A stretch of DNA of 28,313 nucleotides from Planctomycetales bacterium. GTDB taxonomy: Bacteria; Planctomycetota; Planctomycetia; Pirellulales; UBA7805. This document shows, one piece after another, positions 1-18,436 of this stretch. The stretch's first letter is position 1, and the number at the start of each line of letters is the position of its first letter. The stretch covers positions 18,201-46,513 of the forward strand of contig WVZU01000227.1 of NCBI GenBank assembly GCA_011772275.1, in the 5' to 3' direction. The translations under genes and the position numbers were made by a program. The notes under the pieces were generated by a model that searched no databases, was not told where the DNA came from, and saw only the letters and a list, made by a program, of their open reading frames with translations.

Positions 1-27
1 GGGGGGGGGGGGGGGGGGGGGGGGGGG
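1..27. repeat. 27-base G homopolymer at window edge
   Basis: The window opens with 27 consecutive G. On the minus strand they are in frame with the synthase gene and would encode a run of prolines that continues a Pro/Ala-rich linker. A homopolymer this long exactly at a sequence end is also what a sequencing or assembly artefact would look like. Its true length cannot be judged from the sequence. Confidence 0.9.
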
Positions 28-3000
28 CGGCGGCTGGGACCGCGGCCGGCTGGGCCGCGCTGGTCGTGGGGGTCATGCGTCGACCACCTGGCGGCGTTTG
101 TGGCAACGGCGGCCTGCCGGGGGGCACAACCTGCCTGCTGCCGGGCGGCACGAGACCCTGTGGCGACTGCTGGTGATTGCCAACCGGCGTGCCGGCGACC
201 TTGGGGGTGGCCGGCTGTTTTTCCGCCGGAGCAGCCGTGGGCGTCATCGGCATGACCCCACCCTGTTGGCCCAGGGCGGTAGAGCGTTTGCTGGCCCGTC
301 GACTTTCGGTGGCATCGAAATGGATAATCTCGTGACGTGGTTCAGGCATCGCTGCGCTCTCTTCCTTGCTGGAGGTGGGTCGTTGAAGGCTCGGGCTGGC
401 GACCGGGTCCCCTGCCCCGGCACACTCCAACACGGCTTGGACGTGCAACAGCTGTTGGAGGCCGGGCGCTTTAGGATTGTCGCTGGCGACCGTCGCGACC
501 TGCCGTCCTGACAGGATTTGGCGGTGGAGCCGCGTCAGTGCCTGTTGGGGCCCGACTTCGACCAGTATGGTCTCGTTAGGGGCAACCAATTTTTCGATCA
601 GGTCGACGTACCGCACCGGCGTGGTCATGTGTGCGACCAGGTTGTCGCGAATTTCTTCCACGCTGGCGACGGGTCGATTGGTCGCGACGCTGTACAAGGG
701 GACGTTTGGCATTTTGATGTTCGCCGCGCGTAAAGCTTCGCTCAATGGTCCCACCGCTTTTGCCATGAGGGGTGTATGGAACGGGCAGGGTACGGGCAGG
801 AACCGCGCGGAAAAGTTTTGCGTTTCCAAGAGCCGTACCAGATTTTCCAGTTCATCATTCGGCCCACCCACAACGGTTTGCTGCGGCGCGTTGTGATTGG
901 CCAGATAGACCGGCAAGCAGGACTGGCGTATCGATTGTTCGACGACTTCTGAGGAAGCATCTGTAACGACCATGCCGCCGTTGGCTTGGGCGCAGGCAGC
1001 GATGCCGTCACATCGAGCGCGCGTGACCCGGATGGCGGTGTCCAAGTCCCAGGCCCCGGTGACCAATAGTGCCGCGTACTCGCCGTAGCTGTGACCTGCG
1101 ACCAGATCGGGGTGGATCCCCAGATCGGCCAGGGCCGCAGCCATCACGAAATCGGCCAAGAGGATGGAAATCTGTGTGGCAAAGGGGTCGGTACCAAGCG
1201 CATTTGGCTCCTGCCAGCAGAGCTGGGAAAAAGCGGGCAAGCCGGCGCGGCGCATGGCCGCGTCGGCTGTTTGCAGGGCCCCGGCGGCAGCGGGACAAGT
1301 CTGGACCAGCGGCCGCAGCATACCGCTGTACTGGGACCCCTGGCCGGCGAAAAGGAACGCGACTTGTGGACGGGCTGACCGCGTCTGCCTGAAAAAGATC
1401 CCCTGTTGTTGCAGCACGTCTGCCGCAGCCGGGTTTCCCATCTGGCTGGCGGCAACTTTCAATTTCTTTTCCAGCCAATGCGGTCCGTCGGCGACGATTG
1501 CCAGGCGGCAGGGCAAATGCGGGTCGAATCGATGGCCGCGGGCCCCGTTCCACAGCGAGTTTATATCCCGCTGTGCGTCCGCCAGCCTGGCAGCCATCTG
1601 TTCGTTGGAGACCGTGGCGATGCGACAGATCCGCGAATCCGTGCCCGCCTCCCCAGCGGCCGTCACGGCAGGTACAGGGGGTGGGGTGACCGGTGCCGCA
1701 ACCGGCTTGCTGCGGGTGGATGAGGGTGTGTCGAGCATGTCGCGGGGGACTTTTTCACTGCGCTCGAGCACAACCTGGTAATCCATCCCCTTGGAACAAC
1801 TGACCACTGCGGCCAACCGCCGATGGTCCGCCGTGGCATGTCTGATCGCCATGGTTTGTGACGGTGTGGCCAGCTGGGTTGGATGCGCGGCGATGGATGG
1901 CAAGGGGTGCTGGAGGCCCCAGTTTGCGGGAAGCTTTCCCTCCTGCACGGCGAGGATGGATGCGATCAGCGAGACCATGCCCGATGCGCCGCCGGTATGG
2001 CCCATCTGTCCGACCAGGGAATTCAACAGCAGCGGTGCAGCCTGCCGTGCCGGGCCGTAGACGTCCAGAACCGCCTGGATGATTTCCCCGTCGGTGGAGG
2101 TCAATCCCACGCCATCGGTGGTCAGCGTCGCGATATCGGATGCAGGGGCGTGGGCATCGCCCAGGGATCGGCGGATGGCGGCCCGCAAGGCCTCGTCCCA
2201 CGCCGGATCGTAGGCGGCACCGATCCCCCGCACGATGGCGTGGATCGTATCGCCGTCGCGCCTGGCGTCCGAGAGGCGTTTGAGCAGCAGGACGCCAACT
2301 GCTTCACCGGGCAGAATGCCATTGGCTTGAGCGTCAAAAGGCCCGTGCGGACTGGGATCGGTGGCTAACATCCCTGCGGCAGAGAGGGCTTCGAAGGCGG
2401 GCAAGCCCATCCGCCGCTGTCCAGCGGCGCACAACATCATGTCACAATCACCGGTCAGCAGCATATCGACGCAGATCGACAACGCGGACAGCGCGGATGC
2501 GTCGCCACTGTCGATGGCGGCCGCCCCGCCCATCACGTTGAACGATTTGGCAATCCGCGATGCGAGCGTGCTGGTACTGAAACTGCCCGTTTCATCGATC
2601 AGGGCTGGCCAATGTTTAAGCAGTACATCGGCAAACTTGTTGCCGATCGCCGTGATCGTATCAGGGGCCACATTGCGCCGCGCCAAGAGCTGTTGCAGGA
2701 TCTGGCACATGTGCGGCAGACGCAGGCCCAGCTGCAGCTGGAATTGGAAGTCTCCTCCAAATTCGGTGCCGACCACCACGCCTAACCGCGCACGATCGAA
2801 TTCTTTGCGATCGTATCCCGCGTCGTTCATCGCCTGGTCCGCGGCGTCCAACAACATGAACTGAAGCGGATCGGCTTGTTCGATCTGTTTCGGGGGCACC
2901 TTATGCGTCCGCCAGTCGTAGTGGAAGTCGGTAATGAATCCACCCAGCGTCTGTGGGCTGCTGTAAGGGGCAGGTTGCCCAGGCCGGTAGGCCAGGTCCG

Positions 3001-4615
3001 TTCGCCAGCGGTCGAGCGTGGCGTGGCTTTTCGCATCCCGCCCGCTGAGCAGCAACTCCCAGAACTCGGCGACATTGGACGCACCGGGCAGAACACATCC
3101 CATGCCAATCACGGCGACAAGATCGTTGTCCTGGCTGGGCTGCAACGAAGCGGGGGCGTTCGCGCGGCCGTCTGGTTGTTGTGGAGGGGCTTGGGTTGTG
3201 CTGATAAATTGATCCAGGACGACATGCATGTTCAGGCCACCGATCCCAAACGCATTCACCCCGGCTCGGCGCGGCTTGCCCCCTTCCGGCGCAGGCCAGG
3301 GAATCGGCGTCTGCGGGATGAAAATGGGAGCGCCCTCCCAATCGATCTTGGGATTACGCTGCTGGATATTGATGGCGGGAGGCACCGTCTCGTGTTGCAT
3401 GCTGAGCACGGTCTTGATCACCCCGGCAATTCCGGCCGTTTCCAGGGAATGACCAATGTTGGCCTTGACGCTGGTGATGGGAATCTTGCGGCCGGGCGGG
3501 ACCTTGTCGGACAGCAGTTCGATCAGCGTGTTCAGCTCCGTCGCATCGCCCAGCTGGGTGGCCGTGGCATGCGCCTCGATGTATTGCAGTTCGGACATTT
3601 CGATGCCCGTCCGGTAGGCCCGCTGCATGGCCTTGATTTGCCCTTCCTTGCGCGGTGCCCAGAGGCTCTTTCCTTTACCATCCGAGGAAACGCCCAGGCC
3701 GCGGACGACCGCCTGAATCGGATCGCCATCCGCGAGGGCCCGCTCGAGCGTTTTCATCACCAGGGCCACGTATCCCTCGCCGGTAATCAGGCCATCCGCA
3801 TTGGCATCGAAGGGACGCGTACCGGTGGCGCTCATTGCGCGGGCCGCCGAGAAGAGGACCAGCGAGTCCCCTTTGCAGTCGGATGCGCCCCCCACGATGG
3901 CCATGTCGATGTAGCCTCGCTGGAGCGCCCTTGCCCCCAGCAGCATGGCTTGTAGCGAGGACGCGCAGGCCGAATTTATCGCGACGTAGGGTCCCGTCAA
4001 TCCGAACGCCTTGGTAATCAAACCGGCGACCATGCTGGCGGCGACATCCGGCGTATCGGGCGACCGCTGCGGAAGCTGGCTGCGCACCCGGTCGACCAGT
4101 TCTTTGATCACGGCCTGTTGTTGGTCAACCGATAGCGTCTGAAAATCGTCGACCTCGCGCAAAAATTCGGCACCCTCGGCGACGCAGGTGGCGTACGTGT
4201 AATCCCCTGCCAGATGACTGCCCTGCGCGTGCCCGATATAGACGCCCGTATTTCGCAAAGAGAGGTGAAAGGGATCCATGCCTGCGTGACGACAAGCGGC
4301 GGCGGCGACTTCGCACATTAACAAGTGCGTCATGTCGGACGATTCGATCAGCGGTTCTGGGATGGGGCACGCCTGACGATCGAAGTCACGATTGGAAATG
4401 ATTGCGCCCAGCCTGGAATACGTCTTACCACGTACCCCGACCTGGGGATCGTAGTACAGCTCCTGGTCCAACCGCTCGGCGGGCAACTCGACCACCGCAC
4501 TGCGGCCTTCGCTGACCAGCGACCAGTATTGGTCCAGATTGTCTGCGCCGGGCAAACGACAGCCCATGCCCACGATGGCGAGCGGTATGCTGGCGGTTTG
4601 ATGCAGACTTTCCAT
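1..4615 (-). CDS. Type I polyketide/secondary-lipid synthase, KS - degenerate KS (CLF-like) - AT, C-terminus outside window
   Basis: The frame is open from ATG 4615 to the window edge, giving 1538 codons with no stop. Residues about 10-460 form a ketosynthase (AIVGMGCRLPG start) with a complete triad: Cys217 in NSACASSL, His349 in EAHATAT and His389 in NIGHSLETAG. Residues about 497-955 form a second KS fold (VAVIGMGCVLPG) in which the nucleophile position is Asp705 (IDSGDASAL) and the EAHGTGT His is replaced (TTDGVGL), as in chain-length-factor-like domains. An acyltransferase follows from about 1087 to 1390, with LFAGQGSQ, Ser1176 in GHSYGEYAAL, and His1280 in CPFHTPLM; the FH pair suggests malonyl-CoA. 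After HEIIHFDATESRR comes a Pro/Ala-rich linker, usually a prelude to carrier domains. The start lies 28 bases after the thioester reductase stop, so the two are probably co-transcribed. KS/CLF/AT sets are typical of Pfa/Hgl-type lipid synthases, but the exact subtype and product are not established. Confidence 0.93.
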   Translation of the reverse strand, partial: MESLHQTASIPLAIVGMGCRLPGADNLDQYWSLVSEGRSAVVELPAERLDQELYYDPQVGVRGKTYSRLGAIISNRDFDRQACPIPEPLIESSDMTHLLMCEVAAAACRHAGMDPFHLSLRNTGVYIGHAQGSHLAGDYTYATCVAEGAEFLREVDDFQTLSVDQQQAVIKELVDRVRSQLPQRSPDTPDVAASMVAGLITKAFGLTGPYVAINSACASSLQAMLLGARALQRGYIDMAIVGGASDCKGDSLVLFSAARAMSATGTRPFDANADGLITGEGYVALVMKTLERALADGDPIQAVVRGLGVSSDGKGKSLWAPRKEGQIKAMQRAYRTGIEMSELQYIEAHATATQLGDATELNTLIELLSDKVPPGRKIPITSVKANIGHSLETAGIAGVIKTVLSMQHETVPPAINIQQRNPKIDWEGAPIFIPQTPIPWPAPEGGKPRRAGVNAFGIGGLNMHVVLDQFISTTQAPPQQPDGRANAPASLQPSQDNDLVAVIGMGCVLPGASNVAEFWELLLSGRDAKSHATLDRWRTDLAYRPGQPAPYSSPQTLGGFITDFHYDWRTHKVPPKQIEQADPLQFMLLDAADQAMNDAGYDRKEFDRARLGVVVGTEFGGDFQFQLQLGLRLPHMCQILQQLLARRNVAPDTITAIGNKFADVLLKHWPALIDETGSFSTSTLASRIAKSFNVMGGAAAIDSGDASALSALSICVDMLLTGDCDMMLCAAGQRRMGLPAFEALSAAGMLATDPSPHGPFDAQANGILPGEAVGVLLLKRLSDARRDGDTIHAIVRGIGAAYDPAWDEALRAAIRRSLGDAHAPASDIATLTTDGVGLTSTDGEIIQAVLDVYGPARQAAPLLLNSLVGQMGHTGGASGMVSLIASILAVQEGKLPANWGLQHPLPSIAAHPTQLATPSQTMAIRHATADHRRLAAVVSCSKGMDYQVVLERSEKVPRDMLDTPSSTRSKPVAAPVTPPPVPAVTAAGEAGTDSRICRIATVSNEQMAARLADAQRDINSLWNGARGHRFDPHLPCRLAIVADGPHWLEKKLKVAASQMGNPAAADVLQQQGIFFRQTRSARPQVAFLFAGQGSQYSGMLRPLVQTCPAAAGALQTADAAMRRAGLPAFSQLCWQEPNALGTDPFATQISILLADFVMAAALADLGIHPDLVAGHSYGEYAALLVTGAWDLDTAIRVTRARCDGIAACAQANGGMVVTDASSEVVEQSIRQSCLPVYLANHNAPQQTVVGGPNDELENLVRLLETQNFSARFLPVPCPFHTPLMAKAVGPLSEALRAANIKMPNVPLYSVATNRPVASVEEIRDNLVAHMTTPVRYVDLIEKLVAPNETILVEVGPQQALTRLHRQILSGRQVATVASDNPKAPGLQQLLHVQAVLECAGAGDPVASPSLQRPTSSKEESAAMPEPRHEIIHFDATESRRASKRSTALGQQGGVMPMTPTAAPAEKQPATPKVAGTPVGNHQQSPQGLVPPGSRQVVPPGRPPLPQTPPGGRRMTPTTSAAQPAAVPAAAPPPPPPPP

Positions 4616-4643: not shown

Positions 4644-6086
4644 TCAGGACTGAAAAACTGTCTCCAAGGCGCGCAAGGTCGTCGCTGCATCGGCCTCTGC
4701 GCCTTCGATGATCAGGCGACCGGTATCGATGGCCTGCCGCAGATTGCGGCGTCGCTGAATCAGTTCCGCAAACGTATCGTTGTTCAGATAGATGCCGCAC
4801 GACGAAGAATCGTCGAGTCCGGGGCTGGCACCCAGCAGGCGATCGCCATGGACCTGCAATCGCCACTGCCCGCCACCTGGGCCGCTGACCTCCAGGTTCA
4901 TGCTGCGGCCTGTGGCCGCGCTGGACACCGGGGAAAGCGACTCCAGCCGCGGTCGAGATTCCAAGCCGGTTGGCGGTGGTGTCGGTTCGTAAAAAGCGAA
5001 ATTTTTTTGCACGGGATACGCGGCGATCCGCAACAACATGTCGTGGTCCACCATGGGGCACGGCAGGTGCGGCAGGGCACGGTCCGTATGGGTACGGTCA
5101 AATAAGGGATCGTCCCGCCAGTGCGACCGGTAGATGTCCATATACTGCCCGAACAATTGTTCCAGGTCGGCGATTTCTTTTTCACTGAGCACGCCGCTAA
5201 ATTGTCGCGTGGAGTACTTCTCAACGGCTTCCTGGATCACTTCCTGGATCAATCGCACGGTTACCGGTTGCGGGTTGGTCAAATGGTAGGTGCGTCCATG
5301 CTGTGGCGGGGCAGAGACCAGATCGACGATCGCTTGAGCCAGCCAGTCGACAGGAACCAGATTTTTTCCCTCGCTGCCGCTGAGCCCCAGGAGGCGGAAA
5401 AACCGGTCGCCCATGAGACTGGTAGGCACCTTGTCGGCAATCGTGCTGGCCAGTTGCAGCGGCAGATAAAAACCGTGGGCCGACGTGGTGTAGCCGGTTT
5501 GGGAATCCCCCACGACGCTGGCCGGGCGGTAGACCGTGACCTGCTGGAGATGGTCCGCCTCCAGCACCATTTTCTCGCCGGTCAGCTTGCTCCTTTCATA
5601 AACGTTGCCGTTCTCCTGTCCCAGGTCCAGTTCGGTTTCCAAAACGCTTCCGGTCCGCAAGCCGCACACATACGCGGTCGACACGTGATGGAATTGACGC
5701 ACACCCGTCCTGCGGCACAGGTCAAGCATGTTTTGAACGCCGTCGACATTGGTGCGGAACGGTTCGTGAGACCTGGGATCTTCGCGGAAGGTCATGCTGG
5801 CTGCGTTATGCAGCACGCGGTCGCAATGTTCAGTAACCCACCGCGTCGCTTGATCATCCAGTCCCAGTTGCGGTGTTGTAAGGTCGCCTTCCAACACAAC
5901 AGGTCGCGGAAGCGTACGGCCCTCCAGCCGCTCCCAGCGCTGCATGACCGCTTCCACACGATCAACTGCAGGCTGTATCCGCGTGCTGCGGACCAGCACC
6001 GCCACGTGCTCTTCTTTTTCCAGCAGGTAGCGAAGAAGGTAGCCACCCACCAGACCGGTCGAGCCGGTTAACAGCAAATACCCCAT
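4644..6086 (-). CDS. Thioester reductase (extended SDR) fused to C-terminal SCP2-like lipid-binding domain
   Basis: A 480-residue protein. The N-terminal two thirds is an NAD(P)-dependent extended SDR of the thioester-reductase/male-sterility type: TGSTGLVGG at 7-15 binds the cofactor, HNAA is at 93-96, HHVSTAYV supplies the catalytic Ser/Thr near 136, and Tyr163/Lys167 form the YxxxK pair, followed by VYRPASVVGDS. Such domains release carrier-bound acyl thioesters as aldehydes or alcohols. The last ~90 residues (about 390-480) have the pattern of an SCP2 sterol-carrier domain: a GGQWRLQVHGDRLLG strand pair, NNDTFAELIQ, and TGRLIIEGAEADAATTL near the end. The frame stays open 66 codons upstream to 6284, but that extension is Arg/Pro-rich and unlike the domain, whereas MGYLLLTGSTG is a classical Rossmann start. 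It lies directly upstream of the synthase (28-base gap), pointing to reductive off-loading. The SCP2 assignment is by eye. Confidence 0.88.
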   Translation of the reverse strand: MGYLLLTGSTGLVGGYLLRYLLEKEEHVAVLVRSTRIQPAVDRVEAVMQRWERLEGRTLPRPVVLEGDLTTPQLGLDDQATRWVTEHCDRVLHNAASMTFREDPRSHEPFRTNVDGVQNMLDLCRRTGVRQFHHVSTAYVCGLRTGSVLETELDLGQENGNVYERSKLTGEKMVLEADHLQQVTVYRPASVVGDSQTGYTTSAHGFYLPLQLASTIADKVPTSLMGDRFFRLLGLSGSEGKNLVPVDWLAQAIVDLVSAPPQHGRTYHLTNPQPVTVRLIQEVIQEAVEKYSTRQFSGVLSEKEIADLEQLFGQYMDIYRSHWRDDPLFDRTHTDRALPHLPCPMVDHDMLLRIAAYPVQKNFAFYEPTPPPTGLESRPRLESLSPVSSAATGRSMNLEVSGPGGGQWRLQVHGDRLLGASPGLDDSSSCGIYLNNDTFAELIQRRRNLRQAIDTGRLIIEGAEADAATTLRALETVFQS

Positions 6087-6709: not shown

Positions 6710-7912
6710 TTAGAGGAAGAAATCCTGATTCGGAAGATTCAACAGCGTTCTGCCCAGATTGCGTCCTGCTTTTTCGGGGACGTTGACGTAATGCGCTCGA
6801 GCGGCGTGGACGTCCAAAAAGTAACCTGCCAGGGGATGTTCGGCAAAGATGGCTCGACCGCCGCTGGCGGTAAACAGCCGATCGATCGCCTCGACGGCCT
6901 TGCCCACAACATTGGCTGAGTCAAACCGGTACTGAACACGCAAATCGACCGGAATCCGCTCGCCGCGTTGTACCCGCTGCATCATATCGTCCAGATTCCT
7001 GTGAAGGATGACACGCATTTCATCGACCAAAGTGGTTGCACCAGCAGCGGCCATCTGCGCGGCTGGGTCCTCGGCGACGCGCGATCCGTCACCGGCGGCC
7101 ACTTTGTGGGCCGTCGCCTGACAGAACGCCTTCAGGGCGCCCTGGGCCATTCCGATGGCAGACGTGGAAATGGCCCGCACCAGTACCTGGCCAAAAGGCA
7201 AACGATAAAGGGGCGCGGTATTGACCGCGTTGCCGGGGTTGTTCTGCATAAAACCGTCGATAAAACGATGCGTTCGATATTCCGGTACAAAGGCCCCGTC
7301 CACCACGATGTCCTTGCTGCCGGTCCCTTTCAATCCGATGACGTGCCAATTGTCTTCGATGCGGTAGTCTTTTCTGGGGATCAAGTAGGACCGCATGTCG
7401 GGAACGGCGCCTTCCTGCACCGGTGCGTAGCCGCCCAGCAAGACCCAATCGCAATGGTCGCATCCGCTGGAATAGGACCAGCGCCCCGAAACGCGGAAGC
7501 CCTCCTCGACACGTTCGACTTTTCCAGTTGGCGAATACGACGACGAAATCAGGACACGGGAATCATCTCCCCACACATCTTCCTGGGCCTGTTTGTCAAA
7601 CAGAGCCAGGTGCCAGTTGTGTATTCCGACCACCCCCATGATCCAACCGCTTGACGGGCACGCTTCGGCCAGCGTAATTTGCACCTCGAAGAAGGTGCCG
7701 GGGTCGCTTTCCCACCCGCCGTAGGCCGCCGGTTGGAGCATGCGGAAGAAACCCGCTTGGTGGAAGTCGGCAATCGTTTCTGCGGGAATGCACCGTCGCC
7801 GCTCCGTTTCGGCGCGACGTGCTCGTAAAGCCGGCGCCAATCGTCTCGCTCGATCAAGCCATTCCGGGGGGGCTACGGCTTCCACAGGGTGAGTGGAGAC
7901 AATCGTGCTCAT
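6710..7912 (-). CDS. Flavin-dependent monooxygenase of the acyl-CoA dehydrogenase fold (HsaA-like)
   Basis: A 400-residue protein with the acyl-CoA dehydrogenase fold. The N-terminal helical domain contains FHQAGFFRMLQPAAYGG. The middle has AEACPSSGWIMGVVGIHNW, which resembles the A/CxxSGW segment of HsaA/HpaB-type two-component hydroxylases rather than true dehydrogenases. Then come the beta domain (FRVSGRWSYSSGCDHCDWV, and VIGLKGTGSKDIVV) and the C-terminal four-helix bundle (AIDRLFTASGGRAIF). Members of this group hydroxylate aromatic or lipid substrates with reduced flavin supplied by a separate reductase; none is visible here. No CoA-dehydrogenase catalytic Glu could be assigned. The frame opens upstream to 8005, but ATG 7912 (MSTIVSTHPVEAV) matches family length. 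The gene is divergent from the enoyl-CoA hydratase (171 bases apart), suggesting joint control. The exact substrate is unknown; a tailoring role for the synthase product is inferred. Confidence 0.85.
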   Translation of the reverse strand: MSTIVSTHPVEAVAPPEWLDRARRLAPALRARRAETERRRCIPAETIADFHQAGFFRMLQPAAYGGWESDPGTFFEVQITLAEACPSSGWIMGVVGIHNWHLALFDKQAQEDVWGDDSRVLISSSYSPTGKVERVEEGFRVSGRWSYSSGCDHCDWVLLGGYAPVQEGAVPDMRSYLIPRKDYRIEDNWHVIGLKGTGSKDIVVDGAFVPEYRTHRFIDGFMQNNPGNAVNTAPLYRLPFGQVLVRAISTSAIGMAQGALKAFCQATAHKVAAGDGSRVAEDPAAQMAAAGATTLVDEMRVILHRNLDDMMQRVQRGERIPVDLRVQYRFDSANVVGKAVEAIDRLFTASGGRAIFAEHPLAGYFLDVHAARAHYVNVPEKAGRNLGRTLLNLPNQDFFL

Positions 7913-8083: not shown

Positions 8084-9037
8084 ATGAATAGCTCATTCCT
8101 CCATGCCACCATCGACGGTGAGATTGCCACCTTATCCGTCCAGCGTCCCGCTTCGGACAATGCGCTGAATGGTGCCGTCGTCTGCCAGCTGGGCGAGGCT
8201 TTCCGCCAGGCGGCGGCTGACCGGGCCGTTGGTGGGATTGTGATCGGTCGTGCCGAGCAACCGTTCGTTTCGGGGGCCGACGTGCCCTTCTTTATCCGGA
8301 ACATAAAGTCCGGTGACATCGACCGGATCGTCGCTTTTACAAGGATGGCTCAAGATTTACTGGGAGAAATGGATCGGTGTGCCAAGCCGGTCGTGGCGTG
8401 TATTCACGGCGCCGCCCTGGGTGCGGGGCTCGAAATGGCTTTAGCTTGTGACCGGATCGTGGTCTCGACCAGGACCACGCTGGGCCTGCCAGAGACCCGC
8501 CTGGCAATTTACCCTGGGCTCGGCGGCACTCAACGTTTGCCGCGGCGGATTGGCATCGGACTGGCCAAGTGGTTGATCTTCACAGGCGCTCGTATCCCGG
8601 CCACGGTCGCCGCGCAGATCGGCCTTGTGGACCAGGTGGTCGAACCGGATCGATTGGACCACGCCGCTCGTGATGTCGCCATGTCCTTGGCGGACGCCCG
8701 CGATAGCGGTGGCCCGGCTGCAGTGGATCTGCGGCCTGAGCACGTGGCGCTGAGAGACTTTTTCGCCAGCCACAGCGGCGAGGCGATTCAGCAAGGTCGA
8801 GCCGATACGGGTGGCGACAAACAACTGACCATGGCCGCGTGCCAGGTCGCCGCCGCCGGTTCGATTGCCATCCGGATCGCGGATTGGCTGATCGACACGG
8901 GAATGGCCCTGCCGCTGGAAGATGCCTTACAACTGGAAATCGACCACCTGATCGACGTGTTCACGACAGAGGATGCCCTGGCGGGCCTGCAGAGCGTATT
9001 GACGAAGGGTCGGGCACCAACGTTCCGTGGTCGGTAG
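8084..9037 (+). CDS. Enoyl-CoA hydratase/isomerase (crotonase) family protein
   Basis: A 317-residue crotonase-fold protein, longer than the usual ~260. Oxyanion-hole segments are FVSGADVPFF (62-70) and HGAALGAGLEMALACD (108-123). Both acidic residues used by hydratases are present: Glu117 in GAGLE and Glu137 in LGLPETRLAIYPG, followed by GGTQRLPRRIG. This favours true hydration/dehydration of a 2-enoyl thioester over a pseudo-enzyme. The C-terminal ~60 residues end in LEDALQLEIDHLIDVFTTEDALAGLQSVL, the usual C-terminal helices. The residues between about 205 and 250 are an extra, non-conserved stretch that accounts for the length. It is the only plus-strand gene in the first 15 kb. No strong Shine-Dalgarno precedes ATG 8084. 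It may supply dehydration or rehydration for the synthase product, or belong to fatty-acid turnover. Confidence 0.9.
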   Translation: MNSSFLHATIDGEIATLSVQRPASDNALNGAVVCQLGEAFRQAAADRAVGGIVIGRAEQPFVSGADVPFFIRNIKSGDIDRIVAFTRMAQDLLGEMDRCAKPVVACIHGAALGAGLEMALACDRIVVSTRTTLGLPETRLAIYPGLGGTQRLPRRIGIGLAKWLIFTGARIPATVAAQIGLVDQVVEPDRLDHAARDVAMSLADARDSGGPAAVDLRPEHVALRDFFASHSGEAIQQGRADTGGDKQLTMAACQVAAAGSIAIRIADWLIDTGMALPLEDALQLEIDHLIDVFTTEDALAGLQSVLTKGRAPTFRGR

Positions 9038-9201: not shown

Positions 9202-11565
9202 TCAGCGGACCGGGTCTTCCCACGGGATGGTCAGCGGTGTCGCCTGGCTGGCCTGGGAAACGGCCTCCTGCGGGGCAAGGCTTTGGGGGTCGGGCCGATG
9301 CCGAGCGAAAAAACGGCCGACGGGGGTGTTCAGCAGTGCGGGGAAGACAAGCAGGTCACCCAGGAGGGCCATGACCAACAGGAGGAACATGAACCAGGCA
9401 AAGCGTTCGATGGGCAGGAAGGGGCTGAAGGCAAAGAAAAGCAGTCCCCCGCCACAAATCAGTGTCGTCTGCAACATGGCTGAGGCGCATTGCTGGTAGG
9501 CAGACTCCACGGCCTTGCTCCGGCACCCATAGCGGGCCAGTCCCCTGCGGAAGGAGACCAGGAAGTGGATCGTGTCGTCCACGGCGATACCCATGGCCGC
9601 GCTGGCGGTCATCATCACGCCGATGTCGATCGCCTGGCCGCAGAGCCCCAGGCTGCCAAAGACGACGGCGGCCGGGAAGATGTTGGGGACCATCGAGACC
9701 ATGCCGGCGATCAGGCTCCGGGTAATCAGCATCATCACCAGCCCGATCAGCAGGAACGCGGTGACAAAACTGCGGATCAGGTCTTCCAGCAGTTGTTTCT
9801 GGGCCGTGTAGATCAGCGGCACCCCGCCGGTAACCACCGCGGTGGCCTGCAAACCTGTTGTCTCCTGCTCTTCCTCCAGAAACTTCGCGACCACCCCATC
9901 CAGGCGCTGGAGAAATTTGCCGTATTCCACTTTTTCATCGGTCGAGAGCCGGGCGCTGATCCGCCACAGTTCGTTTTTTTGGGGCCCGTCGAGGTACAGA
10001 TAACCCAGCTGTTGGAAATCTTCCTGCTGTCGCTGGATTCGCCGAGCAGCAACGCGGCGGTGCATGATTTGTCGAGCGCCGCCGGCGGCGGGCAGCGCGG
10101 GGACAAAGGTACTGGCTGCCAGCGTGCCGCCCACATGGTCCAGCCGATCGATCCTCTCCCGCAGCCGCTCGACCGTTTCGATCCGTCTCAGCAGTTCCCG
10201 CGCGTCATCCTCTCCGCGAGGTCCCAGGTTCAGCACGACTTCCATCGGCACCAGCGGGCCAATGTGCTGCTGCAGCCACGCATAACTGCGCATCAGGTCG
10301 GATGTGGGGGGCATCAGGTCGTTCAGCTTGGTGGAAGTCCGTATGCGAGAAATTCCCAGTAAGAAAAGGGGCAGCAGCAGCAAGACAACCAGCAGCAGGC
10401 CGGTGCCATATCGCGAACTGGAAAGACGACAGAGGCCGAACCACCAGGGGTCTCCCCCGCCCCGCCGCCCTTTTGTCTGCAGACCCGCAGCGTGTTCGGC
10501 GTCCGCCGGCCGCATCCACCAGCTCATCGCCGCCGGCCACAATAACAACAGCACCCCCAGAACGATCATCACGCCAATCGACGAGAACAAACCGAACCTG
10601 CGGATGGGGATCACCTCGCTGACCATCAGCGAACCCAAACCGAAGCTGGTGGTGACGCTGGCAAGTGTCACGGGCAGCCAGCCGCGGCGCATGGCGCGGC
10701 GAAGCGCCCCGTCGACGCCCTGATGCCGCACCGCATCCAAGTAATAGTTGGCCAGGTGAATCGCCCCGGAAACACCCAGCACGTAGACCAGAACGGGCAT
10801 CATCATCATGACCGCGTTCATGTTCGTTCCGGACAAAAACAAGACCGTGAGGCTGGCGGTCCAGGCCCAGACCGCAGTGAGAAAGACAATGACGATCATG
10901 CGGAAGCTGCGGAGGCTGCGCCAGGCCGCCAGTAGTCCCCACACTCCCGACATCGTGCCCATCCACAGCAAATATTGCTGGCTGGCTGCATCAATGGCCA
11001 CGCTATCGACAGTCGACCCGCCCACAAAGAATTTGTCACGGTCGAAACCCAAGTTGTTCGCGACCGTGTAAGCGGCACGTACCGCCTGCTCGCGGTTTTC
11101 CATCCCCACGTGGGAAACCAAGGCCACGACACAGGTCGTCTGGCCATCGTGGCCCACCAGCCAGCCCTGCATGCGATCCAGGGCCTGGTCCCGCTCCAGA
11201 CCCGCCGGCCCATCCATCAATGCACTCAGCGTCTCTCGCCCCGTAAATACCTGCCGGAACAAACGGGGGGACGACTGTCCAGCGGTGGTCAAGCGGGACT
11301 GGCGCAACTGGTGGGCAAACGCCTCCAGCCGCTGGTCCTCAAGCGTGCAGCCGGGCCAGCTGACCACCAGGATCTCTTCGGTGCCAAAGCGGTGGAAGAA
11401 CCAAATCAGCTCGTCCAGGCCCTCGATATGGCGGGGCATCCAGTCCTTGATGTCGTTGCTATTGGTCAGGTAGGCCCGCAACGAGCCGTAGCCCAGCAGC
11501 GGCAGCACCAGCAAGGCGGCCAGACAGATGGCTCGACGGTAACGGCAGTAAAACAGCTCGGTCAT
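9202..11565 (-). CDS. RND-superfamily (MMPL-type) transporter, 12 TM
   Basis: A 787-residue integral membrane protein with the duplicated RND/MMPL plan. TM1 (AICLAALLVLPLLGYGSL) is followed by a ~180-residue extracytoplasmic loop and five TM helices (e.g. MMMMPVLVYVLGVSGAIHLA). A second half repeats this: TM7 (GLLLVVLLLLPLFLLGI), a second large loop, then five helices including VPNIFPAAVVFGSLGL and ASAAMGIAVDDTIHFLVSF. GIAVDDTIHF matches the TM10 signature holding the charged proton-relay residues of RND pumps. MMPL/HpnN-type members export lipids and lipid-linked metabolites, which suits the neighbouring synthase, ligase and SCP2-fused reductase. It lies downstream of the hydrolase/ligase/oxidoreductase genes after a 367-base gap and is convergent with the hydratase. 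Start ATG 11565 places TM1 right after MTELFYCRYRRA. The cargo is inferred, not shown. Confidence 0.9.
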   Translation of the reverse strand: MTELFYCRYRRAICLAALLVLPLLGYGSLRAYLTNSNDIKDWMPRHIEGLDELIWFFHRFGTEEILVVSWPGCTLEDQRLEAFAHQLRQSRLTTAGQSSPRLFRQVFTGRETLSALMDGPAGLERDQALDRMQGWLVGHDGQTTCVVALVSHVGMENREQAVRAAYTVANNLGFDRDKFFVGGSTVDSVAIDAASQQYLLWMGTMSGVWGLLAAWRSLRSFRMIVIVFLTAVWAWTASLTVLFLSGTNMNAVMMMMPVLVYVLGVSGAIHLANYYLDAVRHQGVDGALRRAMRRGWLPVTLASVTTSFGLGSLMVSEVIPIRRFGLFSSIGVMIVLGVLLLLWPAAMSWWMRPADAEHAAGLQTKGRRGGGDPWWFGLCRLSSSRYGTGLLLVVLLLLPLFLLGISRIRTSTKLNDLMPPTSDLMRSYAWLQQHIGPLVPMEVVLNLGPRGEDDARELLRRIETVERLRERIDRLDHVGGTLAASTFVPALPAAGGARQIMHRRVAARRIQRQQEDFQQLGYLYLDGPQKNELWRISARLSTDEKVEYGKFLQRLDGVVAKFLEEEQETTGLQATAVVTGGVPLIYTAQKQLLEDLIRSFVTAFLLIGLVMMLITRSLIAGMVSMVPNIFPAAVVFGSLGLCGQAIDIGVMMTASAAMGIAVDDTIHFLVSFRRGLARYGCRSKAVESAYQQCASAMLQTTLICGGGLLFFAFSPFLPIERFAWFMFLLLVMALLGDLLVFPALLNTPVGRFFARHRPDPQSLAPQEAVSQASQATPLTIPWEDPVR

Positions 11566-11932: not shown

Positions 11933-12907
11933 CTAACAGAATTTACGTTGGTGGTTTGGATTTGACTGGCGCTTATCGGAGAGCCAGGTATCGGTCGTCC
12001 CTCCCAGTCGCGGCAAACCGTCGCAGGCCACGAACTCGCGCTGCGGATGCCGGCGGATACGGCTGGCCGCCAAGCGGGGGTCATGATTCCAGAGCACCCA
12101 CCATCGGCCATCGGCCACCTGACCCAGCAGTTGCGGCTTACGGCGGCGGGAGTCGAGCGGATGCGTGTCGTAGGCGGGGCACCACATGTGGCGGAGGTGA
12201 GCGGTCGAGGGGCAGATGTCGGCCAGGTAGATGGCTGCCTGGCCGCCCGACTCAAAAAGGAATGCCAGGTGGCCCCGCGTATGGCCACCGGTCAGGATGG
12301 CCTTCAGTCCCGGCAGGATCTGCTGGCCGTCCTCGACCAGGTCGAGCTGAGCGTGGCGCAAGGGGAGGATGTCCTCCAAGGCATACGCGGTTTTCAATTC
12401 GATCGCTTCCCGGGTCGCATCCTCCCATTCGATACGCCCCACCACGTGTCGTGCCTGGGGAAAGGTCAGCCGCCGGGCTCCGCCGGCATCCAGACGCGTG
12501 GCCCCTCCCACGTGATCGAAATGGAGGTGGCTGAAGAGGACCGTATCGATCTGGTCCAAAGGCATTTGCAATTCGGCCAGGCTGCGGATCAGCGGTTCGC
12601 CCTCCTCCATATCGTAAAATTTGCGTTGCAGGGCATCGTACTTGCCGCCGTATCCGGTATCGATCAACACGTTGTGTACGCCATTGCGGGCCAGCACGCA
12701 GTGGTTGGCAAAGGGTACCCGGTTTTGCGGATCGGCACGGACGACGTTGTGCCACAGCGATTTGGGTACCACGCCAAACATGACTCCGCCGTCCAGTCGG
12801 AACATGCCGCCGTTGACGGTGGTCAGTTGCCAATCTCCAAGCTGCATGGTTCCGTTTCCCGCAAGCTGCCGGCGTGCGTCCTTGTTTTCCGGGTGCGCGT
12901 CAGGCAT
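11933..12907 (-). CDS. Metallo-beta-lactamase-fold hydrolase
   Basis: A 324-residue MBL-fold protein with the complete two-metal ligand set: His127, His129, Asp131 and His132 in SHLHFDHVGG, His209 in LTGGHTRGH, Asp230 in IYLADIC and His275 in LWNHDPR. This matches the AHL-lactonase/AidC-like and hydrolytic-thioesterase branches, which cleave lactones or thioesters, but the substrate cannot be read from sequence. The chosen ATG 12907 overlaps the ligase stop (ATGCCTGA), giving translational coupling. ATG 12847 (MQLGDWQLTTVNGGMF), preceded by GGGAAACGGAACC, would start just before the conserved fold and is a realistic alternative. It sits third in the oxidoreductase-ligase-hydrolase set, so a job on the same acyl intermediate, such as editing or lactone/thioester cleavage, is inferred. 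Confidence 0.88.
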   Translation of the reverse strand: MPDAHPENKDARRQLAGNGTMQLGDWQLTTVNGGMFRLDGGVMFGVVPKSLWHNVVRADPQNRVPFANHCVLARNGVHNVLIDTGYGGKYDALQRKFYDMEEGEPLIRSLAELQMPLDQIDTVLFSHLHFDHVGGATRLDAGGARRLTFPQARHVVGRIEWEDATREAIELKTAYALEDILPLRHAQLDLVEDGQQILPGLKAILTGGHTRGHLAFLFESGGQAAIYLADICPSTAHLRHMWCPAYDTHPLDSRRRKPQLLGQVADGRWWVLWNHDPRLAASRIRRHPQREFVACDGLPRLGGTTDTWLSDKRQSNPNHQRKFC

Positions 12908-14408
12908 TTTCCAGAATGGCCGCGGCATCATCGGCAATCGGCATGCCCCTCCGCAGCGGCTTGCCACTGCCGGTGCGTGGCAGAGTGGCCACGAAAAAGA
13001 TCCGTTCAGGAACCTTAAAATACGTGACGCGTCTGGCGCAGTAGCGACGCAAGTCCTGTTCGCCAGGCGGCTGGGCCACGCCCGGCTTGAGCATCACCCG
13101 TGCTCGGCCCGTCTCCTCTGCTTGGGGGCTGCGGTGAGCGTAGACGGCCGCCTCCTGGACGGCCGGGTGGGACTCCAGCACCGCTTCGACCTCCTGCGGG
13201 AAATATTTCATGCCCCCCACATTGATCATTTCCTTCGAACGGCCGCGAATGAAGAGGCAGCCCTCGGAATCCAGCTCGCCAAGATCCCCCGTGGCGAACC
13301 AGCCGTCTGGCATGATCCGGTCGCGCGTCCGCCAGGGATCGTAGTAAGCGTCCAGCAGGCCTTGGCCTCGAATGTGGATCTCCTTGAGTCCTTTTCCCAG
13401 TCCGAGATCGACCAGCTTCAGGTCATAGGCAGGCAACAGCTTTCCCACGGCATCGACATGCTGGTCGGCCCACAACAGATTGATGCACGGCAGTCCGACT
13501 TCGATGATTCCGTAGGCCTGGGTCAGCGGGATGCCGAAGCGGTCGCGAAACGCCGCCGCGGTCCGGCTGGAAAGCGCGCTGGCCGTGGAGATCGCCAGCC
13601 GCAGATGGCTGAGCAGCTGTCCGCTGCGATCGGCCGCCATCAGCAGATAATGCGAGGGCGAACCGTAGATGATGGTCCCCTGGTACCTGGCCGTCGTATC
13701 GACGATGGCACTGCCCAGCCTTGTCTTCCGCGGACAGATCACCGTCGTGGCACCGAACGTCAGGTAAGCCACGATGGAGACGGCAAAGTGATACGACATG
13801 GACAGCAGCCAGATCACCCGGTCCTGGGGGCAGATTTCCATGCCATCGTTGGCCGCATGGATGCGATCCAAAATCGTTTCGTGGGAAAGAACCACGCCTT
13901 TCGAATCGCCGGTTGTTCCCGAGCTGAAGCGAATAAAGGCGGCGTTCACGTCGGCGAATCCCGCCGGATGATCTCGCAGCGGTCGCACTGGGAAGAGAAG
14001 ATTATCGTCGGCCAGCTTCTGCACCGGTCCGCAGACCGCCGGATGAAACACGTTCGCCGAGACATCACGCGAGACAATGTGCTCCAGCCGTATCCGCTCG
14101 CAGAGGGCTTGCTTTTCCACGTCGGCCAACTCTACCGGTATCGGCACGACACAGGCCCCGCATCGCCACAAGGCGTAATTGACCACGATGTAGTTCAATC
14201 CGCTGGGTGCATGCAGTCCGACGCACTCGCCCGCCGAAACACCCGCCGCCGCCAATTGTGCGGCGACCTCGTCGATCATGTCGCACAGCTGGGCATAGGT
14301 GTAGACCTCATCCTGGTCGGGACAGACGACCGCGGGGTGATCCGGTTGCTGCCGGGCAGTTTGCACCAGTTTCTCGTACAGATTCACCTTCGCTGCTCGC
14401 CTGAACAT
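12900..14408 (-). CDS. Acyl/aryl-AMP ligase (ANL superfamily)
   Basis: A 502-residue adenylate-forming enzyme. The ATP-binding A3 loop is SSGTTGDSKG (162-171), A5 is YGIIE (299-303), A7 is ATGDLG (372-377), the A8 hinge is RGRSKEMINVGG (388-399), and A10 is RTGSGKPLRR with the catalytic Lys at 483. All are intact, so it should activate a carboxylic acid as acyl-AMP and pass it to CoA or a carrier protein. The substrate pocket shows no clear signature; both fatty acids and aromatic acids are possible. ATG 14408 (MFRRAAKVNLYEKL) is preceded by GAGG at 9 bases; ATG 14426, which overlaps the oxidoreductase stop, would add six residues. The end overlaps the hydrolase start by 8 bases. It is a good candidate for supplying the synthase's starter unit. 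Confidence 0.92.
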   Translation of the reverse strand: MFRRAAKVNLYEKLVQTARQQPDHPAVVCPDQDEVYTYAQLCDMIDEVAAQLAAAGVSAGECVGLHAPSGLNYIVVNYALWRCGACVVPIPVELADVEKQALCERIRLEHIVSRDVSANVFHPAVCGPVQKLADDNLLFPVRPLRDHPAGFADVNAAFIRFSSGTTGDSKGVVLSHETILDRIHAANDGMEICPQDRVIWLLSMSYHFAVSIVAYLTFGATTVICPRKTRLGSAIVDTTARYQGTIIYGSPSHYLLMAADRSGQLLSHLRLAISTASALSSRTAAAFRDRFGIPLTQAYGIIEVGLPCINLLWADQHVDAVGKLLPAYDLKLVDLGLGKGLKEIHIRGQGLLDAYYDPWRTRDRIMPDGWFATGDLGELDSEGCLFIRGRSKEMINVGGMKYFPQEVEAVLESHPAVQEAAVYAHRSPQAEETGRARVMLKPGVAQPPGEQDLRRYCARRVTYFKVPERIFFVATLPRTGSGKPLRRGMPIADDAAAILENA

Positions 14409-14419
14409 TGTTTCGCGCC

Positions 14420-15607
14420 TCAACATTGGTGAGCCGCCGTTCCGGCGGCTTCTCCCATCTTCCAGCAGCTGCCCACCACGCGGGCCGAGGCCTGCGCGCG
14501 ATGATCGGCCGAAAGGCACTTGCCCGCGGCCCACAGGTTGCTGTGACCCTTCACTTGCAGCGACCGTAAGGGAATCTCGTACTGCACCTCGGCCGGCAAA
14601 TATTCCAGCTCCAAGCCACGTTGGGGATGCCAGTATTCAATCGGCCAGCTGCAGCGACAGATGCCGTCCTCAAAACGGCGACCACTGCGGATATCCTCTT
14701 CGGTCAGATAATATTCCCCCCGGATACGCCCGCCGTCGCGAACCCCCAGTTCGCCGGTCTGCGTCACGCGGGCCCCGGCAAAGTCGGTAAAGCGACGCAG
14801 GTAGGTCACCAGCTCTTCCTGGATCCGGCAAGTTTCCACATCGATCTGCCGGCGCCGTTCGGCCGATCGCCAGTCACCAGACAGGGGCACAAAAAGCTTG
14901 ACGTAGACTTCGCCTTCTTCCGTACCGCTGTCCAGCCAGGCGTGTTGGCACAGCGACGGCAATTCACCACGCTGGGCCGCCAGATGTATTTGCTGTACGA
15001 TCTTCAGCCCCTTGGGAAACGCCACCGCGCCCGGCTGGACTCCCCCCAAACGAAACACCACTCCGCCGGCGGCCCGCTCGTCGTCGTCCAGCACCAGTCT
15101 TCGATCCACCATGCCCACCACCTCGCCGCTACCGGTCGTGTCAATCAACGCCCGGGGACGGATCATCCTCGGACGCTGACCGCTGGTAATCTCCACCTCT
15201 GTCAACCTGCCGCCCACGGCCCGTACGCCCGTGACGCGGCTGGCGTACAACTGCAAAATGTTGTGCTCTTCATCCAGCCAGCTGCGGACGACGTTGCGGT
15301 AAACCTCCGGGCTGACCGCCAGGCACCACGTCTTGCCGATCCGCCGCTTGCGGACCTGCGGACTCGACTTGTGCAACCGCACAACCAGTTCGTCGATCAA
15401 CCCGTCGTTCAGCGGCTTTCCCTGCGGGTCGTACAGGCCGGCCAGCGTGTGGATAAAGGCCTTGGCAACGGTGCCTCCCGCCATGGCTGAACTCTCGATC
15501 AGCCAGGTTCGCGATCCGCGCCGAGCGGCCGCCAGGGCGGCCGCCATCCCCGCGGCACCCGCCCCCACGACCACCACCCCGCCATCCCTACCGTCCGCCG
15601 CGACCAT
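14420..15607 (-). CDS. FAD-dependent oxidoreductase (FAD_oxidored family)
   Basis: A 395-residue flavoprotein. The N-terminal dinucleotide fold is GGVVVVGAGAAGMAAALAAA (Gly15, Gly17, Gly20 of GxGxxG), with IESSAMAGGT closing the FAD ribose site. The middle has RALIDTTGSGEVVGM. The C-terminus LWAAGKCLSADHRAQASARV followed by GEAAGTAA is the hallmark second FAD-contact region of the PF12831-type family. The family contains various dehydrogenases/oxidases and the reaction cannot be narrowed. Start choice: ATG 15607 has GGGAGG 11 bases upstream and begins just before the FAD fold; GTG 15682 would add 25 unconserved residues. It is the first gene of the minus-strand set that continues with the ligase (11-base gap) and hydrolase, downstream of an AT-rich promoter-like region. 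Confidence 0.88.
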   Translation of the reverse strand: MVAADGRDGGVVVVGAGAAGMAAALAAARRGSRTWLIESSAMAGGTVAKAFIHTLAGLYDPQGKPLNDGLIDELVVRLHKSSPQVRKRRIGKTWCLAVSPEVYRNVVRSWLDEEHNILQLYASRVTGVRAVGGRLTEVEITSGQRPRMIRPRALIDTTGSGEVVGMVDRRLVLDDDERAAGGVVFRLGGVQPGAVAFPKGLKIVQQIHLAAQRGELPSLCQHAWLDSGTEEGEVYVKLFVPLSGDWRSAERRRQIDVETCRIQEELVTYLRRFTDFAGARVTQTGELGVRDGGRIRGEYYLTEEDIRSGRRFEDGICRCSWPIEYWHPQRGLELEYLPAEVQYEIPLRSLQVKGHSNLWAAGKCLSADHRAQASARVVGSCWKMGEAAGTAAHQC

Positions 15608-16122: not shown

Positions 16123-16168
16123 GGAAGTGAGTTCTTTTTCAGGCCGAAATTCGCCTCCTTGCCGGGGT

Positions 16169-16234: not shown

Positions 16235-16348
16235 CTGAATGTTCAGCGTCGAGAAACCACTCGGGGAACTTTGAACCCAGCCAATCAGCCTGCTGTTTGA
16301 TCGCCACGGGTGTGGCAGGTTCCTGGAAGACATTTGGAGAGGAAAGTC

Positions 16349-16792: not shown

Positions 16793-16969
16793 TTTCCGCG
16801 GCAGGCCACGGCCGCCCACCCCCCCAGGCGTGACAGGTCCCCCCTTGCTCGCGCCCCTTTTCTTTTTCCGCCAGCAGGCCAGCCAGGGAGAGGCTGAGCC
16901 ACCCCAAACGCGGCGGACTTGTTCTGGCTGTAATCTGTTACCCGATGGCAGTCGAGGGAAAACCTTGAC

Positions 16970-17050
16970 GGGGTCGGGAGTCTTTTTCGCCACCGCGACC
17001 CAGTCGATCGCCTGGGCAACGCGGATATCGCGAAAAAGACTCCCGACCCC
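16970..17050. repeat. 21-bp perfect inverted repeat with inner hairpin, REP-like
   Basis: The arms at 16970-16990 (beginning GGGGTCGGGAGTC, then TTTTTCGC) and 17030-17050 are perfectly complementary over 21 bases. The 39-base spacer contains a second stem, CCCAG...CTGGG, flanked by GCG/CGC. It lies between the convergent 147-aa gene and the acyltransferase gene (stop at 17093). The layout fits a REP/BIME-like extragenic element or a bidirectional transcription stop. The whole 16793-17092 gap contains no other recognisable feature. Confidence 0.8.
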
Positions 17051-17092
17051 TTCCTCGACAAAAAGACAACGACGCGCCCGGATGCGATATTT

Positions 17093-18436
17093 TCAGCCAC
17101 CGCTGGTTTCGCGCAGCTTGGCGACGTATGCATCCAGGAATGCCTCGCCTTGGGAGGGGTCAAAGCAGTGGGGGTCATAGCGGAAATGGATACTGACCTC
17201 TCCAGCGTACTTGGCCACCACGATGGCCCCGCGCGTCAGCGGACGAATCGGCGGCACGCCCCCGATGGTCTCCAGCGTCACGTTCCCGCAGACGAGGCGG
17301 CGATCACGGCGGGGCAATCGGGTCCGCCCAAAGACCCGCCCCAGGTTGCTCAGCACGATCGTGGCCATACACCGCTTGCCATCCAAAAACCTGGGCAGCA
17401 TGCCGCGGATCCCACTGGCGAATCCTAGCCCGCCTAAAAAACAGAGGCTGCTGTGGTTCTCCAGAACGGACCTGGTTTCAGCTCGAATCGATTCCAGCAG
17501 TTGCTGACCGTCCACGCAATCGCGGGCACGGCGGGAGAGGAAAGCGAAACTCAGTCGGTTGGTGGCCGGCAGGGCCTGGTCCGCGGTGACCCGCAAGTTG
17601 ACCGGCAAGTTGACACGCATCCAGCCACGGGCCGTGGGGTGATGCCGCCGGTTCCAGGCTTGCACGACTTGCAACAGATCGCGCAACAGCAGATCGTTGA
17701 AGGTGGCCCTGGCCGACCTGGCGATTTGGCGCAAGCGTTTTTCGACTGGGTCGTCGAGCGGGCGGGTCAGAAAACCACGTTCGTCCAGGTACGGCCAGGG
17801 AGGCTGCGCGACGCCGGCCGGGGCGGCCAAGGGCAGCGAGCGGCGGGCAAGAAACCTGGCCCAGTGGATGGCGGTCTGGCAGACGTCCCGCGGGGTGAGC
17901 CGATAGTGGGGCGTATCCTGCCCCAACAGAAAGCCGACTTCCGCACGGTGTTGCAACAGTTGTTCGTCGACCGCCGGCAGGAGCGGCCCGGCCCTACGAT
18001 GGTATCGTTGGGCATATCCCAGCAAGAGGTCCTCCAGGAACCGGATTCCACCCAGCCCGTCGCAACAGGCATGATGGATCCGCAGCCGCAACCGCGTGGA
18101 CGTATCGCTGACGCGGACCCACGCCCGCAGACCGCTGCCGGAGGCCAGGTCGATCGGCTGGCAAAGGTCATCCACAATCGGTTTTTCGGCCGTCGCCCAG
18201 TCGACTTCCGGCAGCGGGCAATCCCCGGTCTGCCAGGCGGGCCATTTTTGCGAATCGTCTATCCGGGCCCGCAGGAGCGGATGGCGGGCCAGGGCCGTCT
18301 GCCATGCGTCCGCAAAACACTCCTGATCCATGACGCCCGTAAATTCCAGTTCAGACGGACAAGCCGTCGGATAACCCGGCCGATCATCGCACCAGTAGTA
18401 ATACTCGAAGGGTGTCAGAGGCAAAGGAAAAATCAA
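17093..18436 (-). CDS. HHxxxDG acyltransferase (condensation / WS-DGAT-like)
   Basis: A 447-residue protein of the CoA-dependent acyltransferase/condensation superfamily. It opens with FPLPLTPFEYYYWCDDRPGY, and the catalytic motif HHACCDG lies in LRIHHACCDGLGGIRFLEDL. The second half has FNDLLLRDLLQVVQAW, then MRVNLPVNLR, LSNLGRVFG, and a FRYDPHCFD strand near the end. Both halves of the bilobed fold are present. Family members join an acyl thioester to an alcohol or amine (PapA-type, wax-ester/DGAT and NRPS condensation relatives). The start is uncertain. TTG 18436, with GGAG 7 bases upstream, begins at the fold. The same frame stays open to ATG 18751, which has a strong AAGGAG site, but that extension is low-complexity Arg/Pro and poorly protein-like. 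It is a plausible esterifying tailoring enzyme for the nearby synthase product. Confidence 0.82.
   Translation of the reverse strand: MIFPLPLTPFEYYYWCDDRPGYPTACPSELEFTGVMDQECFADAWQTALARHPLLRARIDDSQKWPAWQTGDCPLPEVDWATAEKPIVDDLCQPIDLASGSGLRAWVRVSDTSTRLRLRIHHACCDGLGGIRFLEDLLLGYAQRYHRRAGPLLPAVDEQLLQHRAEVGFLLGQDTPHYRLTPRDVCQTAIHWARFLARRSLPLAAPAGVAQPPWPYLDERGFLTRPLDDPVEKRLRQIARSARATFNDLLLRDLLQVVQAWNRRHHPTARGWMRVNLPVNLRVTADQALPATNRLSFAFLSRRARDCVDGQQLLESIRAETRSVLENHSSLCFLGGLGFASGIRGMLPRFLDGKRCMATIVLSNLGRVFGRTRLPRRDRRLVCGNVTLETIGGVPPIRPLTRGAIVVAKYAGEVSIHFRYDPHCFDPSQGEAFLDAYVAKLRETSGG

Follow-up and report, generated by a model that had tools for sequence, protein, structure and literature searches.

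What kind of product does a planctomycete make with a polyketide synthase (PKS) encoded beside a thioester reductase (TR), an acyltransferase, an acyl ligase and a transporter resembling lipid exporters? The question is raised by a 28,313-nucleotide stretch of a Planctomycetales bacterium (hereafter the window; GenBank assembly GCA_011772275.1, contig WVZU01000227.1, positions 18,201 to 46,513, denoted G000:C437:18201-46513), which comes from an incomplete (85%) assembly. A first-pass annotation of positions 1-18436 had listed nine protein families and proposed that they formed one biosynthetic system for an esterified or hydroxylated, exported lipid. All nine families were confirmed by Pfam in the window proteins, and the rest of the synthase gene was recovered on the same contig, up to ~C437:11868. 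Together with the comparison of related genomes, these data indicate that the locus is probably a conserved secondary-lipid biosynthesis and export cluster, whose chain would be reductively released, esterified and exported. Several parts discussed below, namely a FabL-type reductase, tandem acyl carrier proteins (ACPs), a C45-like domain and two ketoreductases (KRs) followed by a dehydratase (DH), lie outside the window and were hence absent from that earlier reading.

To judge from its domains, the synthase is an iterative type I PKS similar to polyunsaturated fatty acid (PUFA) synthases, with ketosynthase (KS), chain-length-factor (CLF) and acyltransferase (AT) domains at its N-terminus. 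The gene starts at window position 4615 on the minus strand and crosses the left window edge. Inside the window (1-4615) the reading frame is uninterrupted and encodes the N-terminal 1538 residues (Pfam ketoacyl-synt, 353 bits in two stretches; Acyl_transf_1, 124 bits). These comprise a catalytic KS1 with its Cys-His-His residues (3176-4585) and a CLF-like KS2 whose nucleophilic Cys is replaced by Asp (1766-3133), both with approximate bounds taken from the two Pfam stretches, as well as an AT (485-1357; Pfam, residues 1087-1377) whose GHSYGE and PFH motifs we take to be of the malonyl type. Beyond the window, the remainder encodes the ACPs, a degenerate C45-like domain, the two KRs and the DH. 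A 71-base assembly gap (C437:18130-18200) immediately precedes the left window edge, and gaps and one frame break within the tandem ACP repeats of this PKS look like assembly trouble. The PKS of a Planctomycetaceae metagenome-assembled genome (L012) is a single uninterrupted protein of 3757 residues, and those of other relatives, likewise unbroken, measure 3560-3954 residues (15 further long forms) or 2443-2972 residues (eight near-complete short forms).

We aligned 25 of these PKSs and read their active-site residues by eye. The Cys, His and His of KS1 are intact in all 25, as are the AT Ser with its FH/YH motif and the Tyr of KR1, and a second KR is present in 17. The nucleophile column of KS2 lacks Cys in every sequence, in the fashion of a chain-length factor, with a Cys one residue later in eight. 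The DH is PKS-type, with one PKS_DH_N/PS-DH region and no paired DH/isomerase domains. Pfam PP-binding matches numbered two plus two stretches in two parts of the window's PKS and three in L012; a looser ACP motif matched one to six times per protein among 24 near-complete PKSs, with a few of the matches lying outside the ACP region.

Are the neighbouring genes tied to this synthase? The first-pass annotation had made its single-pathway proposal hinge on joint conservation in related genomes, which we examined at two scales. The first was a comparison of 35 loci (30 from genomes of the order that gave good PKS matches, one from G003, picked for its TR, our own contig, and L011-L013) by tblastn with the proteins of our contig, several loci being shortened by contig ends. 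TR was found at 29 loci, the acyltransferase at 25, the AMP-binding ligase at 17, the metallo-beta-lactamase (MBL)-fold hydrolase at 16 and the MMPL transporter at 15. Eight control open reading frames of the contig (two of them doubtful as genes) matched at none of the 34 other loci, so that the co-localisation of the core goes beyond chance. The second scale was a sample of 146 genomes of the order, searched with the second KR and DH of the PKS (KR2-DH, E ≤ 1e-30), TR (1e-50), the acyltransferase (1e-15) and the flavin monooxygenase (1e-60). PKS matches occurred in at least 40 genomes, TR in 58 (72 genes) and the acyltransferase in 74 (103 genes). Measured from the best PKS match of each genome, TR lay within 25 kb in 26 of the 40 and the acyltransferase in 24; 21 genomes had both genes in that range and 11 had neither. 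PKS and TR tended to occur in the same genomes (Fisher p 5.8e-12). The proposal thus withstood this comparison.

The gene order also recurs in G126, a member of another family, as FAD oxidoreductase-AMP ligase-MBL-MMPL-TR-PKS followed by a phosphopantetheinyl transferase (PPTase)-family gene and the reductase gene described next. A phylum-wide search of 294 genomes (E ≤ 1e-60) retrieved at least seven, three from the order and four from another family of the same class, with none from outside the class among the matches listed, and a scan of genome contigs gave seven loci, three of them planctomycete. One conserved system therefore stands for a core of PKS, TR and acyltransferase, joined less uniformly by the MBL hydrolase, AMP ligase and MMPL protein, which recurs in several families.

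The synthase seems to be served by a separate enoyl reductase. A short-chain dehydrogenase/reductase (SDR) gene outside the window (C437:10907-11680) adjoins the PKS gene, and we infer that it encodes a FabL-type trans enoyl reductase, in a role for which PfaD would have been the expected enzyme. Among solved structures the closest is Bacillus subtilis FabL (3oic, 190 bits; the next structure scores 128 bits). All 29 loci that cover this part of the protein, two further loci ending too early, share a Yx6K signature without Met, and Yx6K is the signature of FabL (PMC9260719). A ketoreductase (YxxxK) reading of the SDR was dropped, since the alignment shows Yx6K. The gene was found at 31 of the 35 loci, and a FabL-like gene (E ≤ 1e-75) occurs in 33 of the 40 PKS genomes and in 0 of the 106 others. 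In 30 of the 33 it is on the same contig as the KR2-DH match and within 2.8 kb of it; the three exceptions belong to assemblies of 130-440 contigs. PfaD (E ≤ 1e-30) was found in none of 24 PKS genomes, the genome of the window being 85% complete, and the positive control in B. subtilis was detected.

For the release of the chain, the obvious candidate is the TR (4644-6086 from ATG, minus strand; NAD_binding_4, 158 bits), which carries a C-terminal SCP2-like domain. Its AlphaFold2 model (pLDDT 87.5) has the terminal reductase (R) domain of myxalamid as nearest fold, and in four proteins (P0019, P0027, P0035 and P0036) among the 120 homologues listed of 1183, a TR is joined to the N-terminus of the PKS. 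Esterification could be carried out by the HHxxxDG acyltransferase (17093-18436, minus strand; Pfam Condensation, 37.7 bits; motif HHACCDG). The AlphaFold2 model of this protein (pLDDT 89.9) adopts the condensation-domain fold shared with PapA enzymes, with AzeD ranked first and PapA5 (1q9j) at rank 47. Among 15 family members, Pfam recognised Condensation in 14, PapA_C in six and WS_DGAT_cat in four, the window's own enzyme having no PapA_C match; HHxxxD is present in 25 of 26 aligned family rows and HHxxxDG in 24. Fourteen of the 72 TR genes have an acyltransferase gene no more than 8 kb away and no PKS match on the same contig inside 25 kb, so that the release and esterification genes occur as a pair in their own right too. 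G003 has a cluster of MMPL, TR, GT2 glycosyltransferase and acyltransferase genes (L099:1580-8607), the GT2 gene standing between those for TR and the acyltransferase, and no PKS match at E ≤ 1e-30 genome-wide; this set is a stand-alone module. In G057, a second TR and acyltransferase pair (L058:1620-4596) lies a few kb from the first.

Several observations weigh against a single conserved lipid cluster or against the functions assigned to its parts. For 11 of the 40 PKS matches, no TR or acyltransferase gene lies within 25 kb. Five of these are weak (G010, G016, G029, G033 and G133; E 1e-32 to 1e-44) and could represent different PKSs, four sit on contigs 5.7-7.3 kb long, and the remaining two are G111 and G129. 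Neither TR nor the acyltransferase is exclusive to the PKS, since 24 genomes have TR but no PKS and the acyltransferase reaches 74 genomes in total. The counts for the MBL hydrolase, AMP ligase and MMPL protein come from the 35-locus comparison only, and the ligase, 57% identical in G126, shows just 24-30% identity elsewhere. The SDR scores under the curated FabL cut-off (NCBIfam NF005975, 260.9 versus 328 bits), so its enoyl reductase activity is a prediction. Finally, the SCP2 match of the window's TR is marginal (21.6 bits, cut-off 21.3), and Pfam finds SCP2 in one of 16 TR family members, for which reason we rejected it as a Pfam-recognised family trait; a C-terminal block with a GxxGGxW-type motif is conserved despite the scarcity of these matches.

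The remaining core genes, all on the minus strand, include those that would supply activation and export. The MMPL/RND-type transporter (9202-11565; MMPL, 53.6 bits) is a predicted lipid exporter. Its nearest NCBIfam model is HAE3 (127 bits, under the cut-off of that model), and it is far from the actII/MMPL-type model TIGR00833 that describes MmpL7/8-type proteins (65 bits, cut-off 874.7). The MBL-fold hydrolase (11933-12847; Pfam and NCBIfam) is YtnP-like, with an intact HxHxDH motif found in 15 of 15 family members; the YtnP lactonase model is the nearest, and the protein scores far under its cut-off (199 versus 425). The AMP-binding acyl ligase occupies 12900-14426 (AMP-binding, 178 bits).

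Three of the nine genes are accessory and outside the core: an HsaA-like flavin monooxygenase (6710-7912, minus strand; NF045629, 442.5 bits, cut-off 450), a crotonase-fold enoyl-CoA hydratase (8084-9037, plus strand; ECH_1, 131 bits) and a FAD_oxidored protein (14420-15607, minus strand; 244 bits). The crotonase gene is on the strand opposite to the other listed genes, which corrects the earlier reading. The monooxygenase was found at our own locus only among the 35 and in two of the 146 genomes (our own and G022, 39% identity). The crotonase was found at three loci and the FAD oxidoreductase at two, the other being that of G126, where the order is the same. The monooxygenase and crotonase genes occupy 3.1 kb between the MMPL and TR genes, which in G126 are ~110 bp apart, and they therefore look inserted. 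The part of the first-pass annotation that called the product esterified and exported is supported for the core, and the part that called it hydroxylated is not supported in the form proposed. PPTase genes are another feature of the relatives: two gene families, one member of each identified by Pfam, come right after the PKS at 13 and 8 loci. The window has no PPTase gene, and two matches lie elsewhere in the genome (C166 and C368). Start codons of the window genes were partly chosen by judgement and partly read directly, and no tRNA, nor any Rfam family at the gathering threshold, was found in scans of the window.

The domain identities, active-site motifs and co-conservation suggest the following pathway. 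The AT would load malonyl units onto the tandem ACPs, and KS1 with the KS2 chain-length factor would elongate the chain iteratively. KR1 and KR2 would reduce and the DH dehydrate, and the separate FabL-type enoyl reductase may saturate selected steps in trans, in replacement of PfaD. TR would then release the chain reductively as an aldehyde or primary alcohol, its SCP2-like domain perhaps shielding the lipid. The AMP ligase may activate a second acyl group, or else the starter; joining that second group to the freed chain as an ester would fall to the PapA-like HHxxxDG enzyme, and carrying the product toward the outer envelope to the MMPL protein. We infer this order of steps, together with the substrate of the ligase, a role for the MBL hydrolase and the nature of the product.

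Alternatively, the synthase could make a diffusible specialised metabolite and not an envelope lipid, for instance an amino-alcohol chain resembling zeamine or fabclavine, or some other bioactive compound, tailored in relatives by aminotransferase and Rieske enzymes and expelled by the MMPL protein as a self-export pump. Gene families identified by one examined member each as Rieske oxygenases (20 of 35 loci) and class III aminotransferases (12 of 35) do adjoin the PKS in relatives, and zeamine is made by a secondary-lipid synthase with an aminotransferase and a TR (PMC13291983). However, the window's own cluster has neither gene, Pfam detected no nonribosomal peptide synthetase (NRPS) adenylation-carrier module among its scanned proteins, and recurrence in many families of the order would fit a structural trait better. 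We therefore regard this alternative as unlikely. A conventional PUFA synthase that provides fatty acids for membranes is very improbable. The KS-CLF-AT-ACP logic and the scores with the PfaA model TIGR02813 (cut-off 1010.1; L012 falls short with 925 bits and G126 passes with 1033.8) speak for this, but we rejected a PUFA synthase proper on the lack of PfaD in the 24 genomes and the single PKS-type DH, to which the linked TR, acyltransferase and exporter can be added. That the genes are chance neighbours from several unrelated operons is scarcely credible in view of the core co-localisation and the TR-PKS fusions, and this reading retains some ground just for the monooxygenase, crotonase and FAD oxidoreductase, which are not generally conserved.

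Within the lipid synthase that we favour, a second unexpected part besides the FabL-type trans reductase is a domain similar to C45 enzymes (AAT, an N-terminal nucleophile (Ntn) hydrolase), placed between the ACPs and the KR. With the NCBIfam model NF040521 (cut-off 85), G126 passes at 86.6 bits and L012 falls short at 61.9; Pfam PF03417 matches 38 of the 120 homologues listed of 1183 passing the threshold (counted by eye). A purpose-built profile detected the domain in 122 of 146 PKS sequences (some of them the same protein twice), and its weakest members are less certain because the profile was widened over three rounds. An ACP motif precedes the domain in 96 of the 122. The nucleophile column holds Cys in 29, Ser in 28 and another residue or a gap in 65; the PKS of the window belongs to this last group and has no Cys there. 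Among the eight short forms from the order, five (G065, G107, G119, G123 and G131) gave no match to the profile, nor did the four TR-fused PKSs or the very large modular PKSs among the homologues. A query with the domain matched 19 proteins, all carrying PKS domains; free-standing C45 enzymes could not appear, because the search admits proteins of PKS size only. It is possible, if doubtful, that a planctomycete megasynthase lineage built an Ntn-hydrolase domain into its lipid PKS, the Cys and Ser forms either cleaving the synthase into two chains or passing the nascent chain on to an amine or an alcohol, and the others, including the window's, serving as a non-catalytic structural part. If true, the C45 domain and the dedicated FabL-type trans enoyl reductase would define a new secondary-lipid synthase architecture.

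The cluster is flanked by other genes. Divergent from the acyltransferase gene, an animal-haem-peroxidase protein is encoded at 18868-21381 (plus strand; PF03098, 426 bits), with matches at none of the 34 other loci. Further on, 21944-28311 (minus strand) and L004 contain polysaccharide export/SLBB, TPR and two GNAT genes, followed by genes for Wzz-like, ParA-like and sugar transferase proteins; these probably belong to an exopolysaccharide locus distinct from the cluster. On the opposite side, past the SDR gene (L003:6637-10979, minus strand), are two genes, one with a weak DUF3352 match and one for a probable secreted protein, and this pair is also found near the PKS in G066, G021, G057 and G126.

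The cluster offers a testable route to a lipid, probably one associated with the envelope, and belongs to a phylum in which few metabolites have been characterised: a 2025 review lists five compounds or classes (PMC12078418). Cultured carriers appear to exist, as PKS homologues bear the names Blastopirellula, Bremerella and Bythopirellula, and a knockout with lipid comparison is therefore feasible. Within the available portions of open-licence papers we found no description of the cluster: it is not described in those of PMC12078418, PMC10896814 and PMC4982196, a planctomycete genome paper counts type I PKS and hglE-KS clusters (PMC13190842), and a 2026 survey of hybrid PUFA-like pathways contains, in its main text, no word beginning with Planctomycet- or Pirellul- (PMC13291983).

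How does it compare with known systems? It shares the iterative KS, CLF, AT, ACP, KR and DH logic of Pfa and secondary-lipid synthases, including an active KS with a KS-like CLF and AT, and tandem ACPs, and it departs from Pfa in the PfaD-type reductase and the paired DH/isomerase domains. Types I and J of Shulse and Allen (2011) include the planctomycetes Gemmata (I) and Planctomyces limnophilus (J), the available text naming no further one; type J consists of pfaD with KS-MAT-ACP3-KR, and type I contains a pfaBC fusion (PMC3098273), whereas here there is one giant protein and PfaD was not found in the 24 PKS genomes. Zeamine and fabclavine loci likewise combine a secondary-lipid synthase with a TR, and with an aminotransferase that here occurs in relatives and not in the window's cluster, where no NRPS arm was seen either. 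The mycobacterial loci for phthiocerol dimycocerosate (PDIM) and sulfolipid consist of Pks, FadD, PapA and MmpL, which resemble the PKS, AMP ligase, HHxxxDG acyltransferase (PapA_C similarity at the family level) and predicted MMPL exporter described here. In contrast to the modular Pps of PDIM, the synthase here is iterative and PUFA-like, release is predicted to be reductive, through TR, and the MMPL protein is nearer HAE3 than the actII/MMPL model. The heterocyst glycolipid (hgl) islands of cyanobacteria have in common with our cluster KS, CLF, AT, ACP, KR, DH, a linked TR and a PPTase (here in relatives only); in these islands, the product so assembled and set free is a long-chain alcohol-type aglycone (PMC11804610). 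They also have a glycosyltransferase, an ABC transporter and an enoyl reductase domain of their own (PMC11804610); no glycosyltransferase or ABC exporter was found among the Pfam-scanned proteins of window positions 1-18436 and L003, the other loci being scanned in part. Unlike them, our cluster has a PapA-like acyltransferase, an MMPL protein, a FabL-type reductase and a C45-like domain. Its nearest description is a secondary-lipid synthase cluster that works like the hgl and PDIM loci and falls outside the bounds of both.

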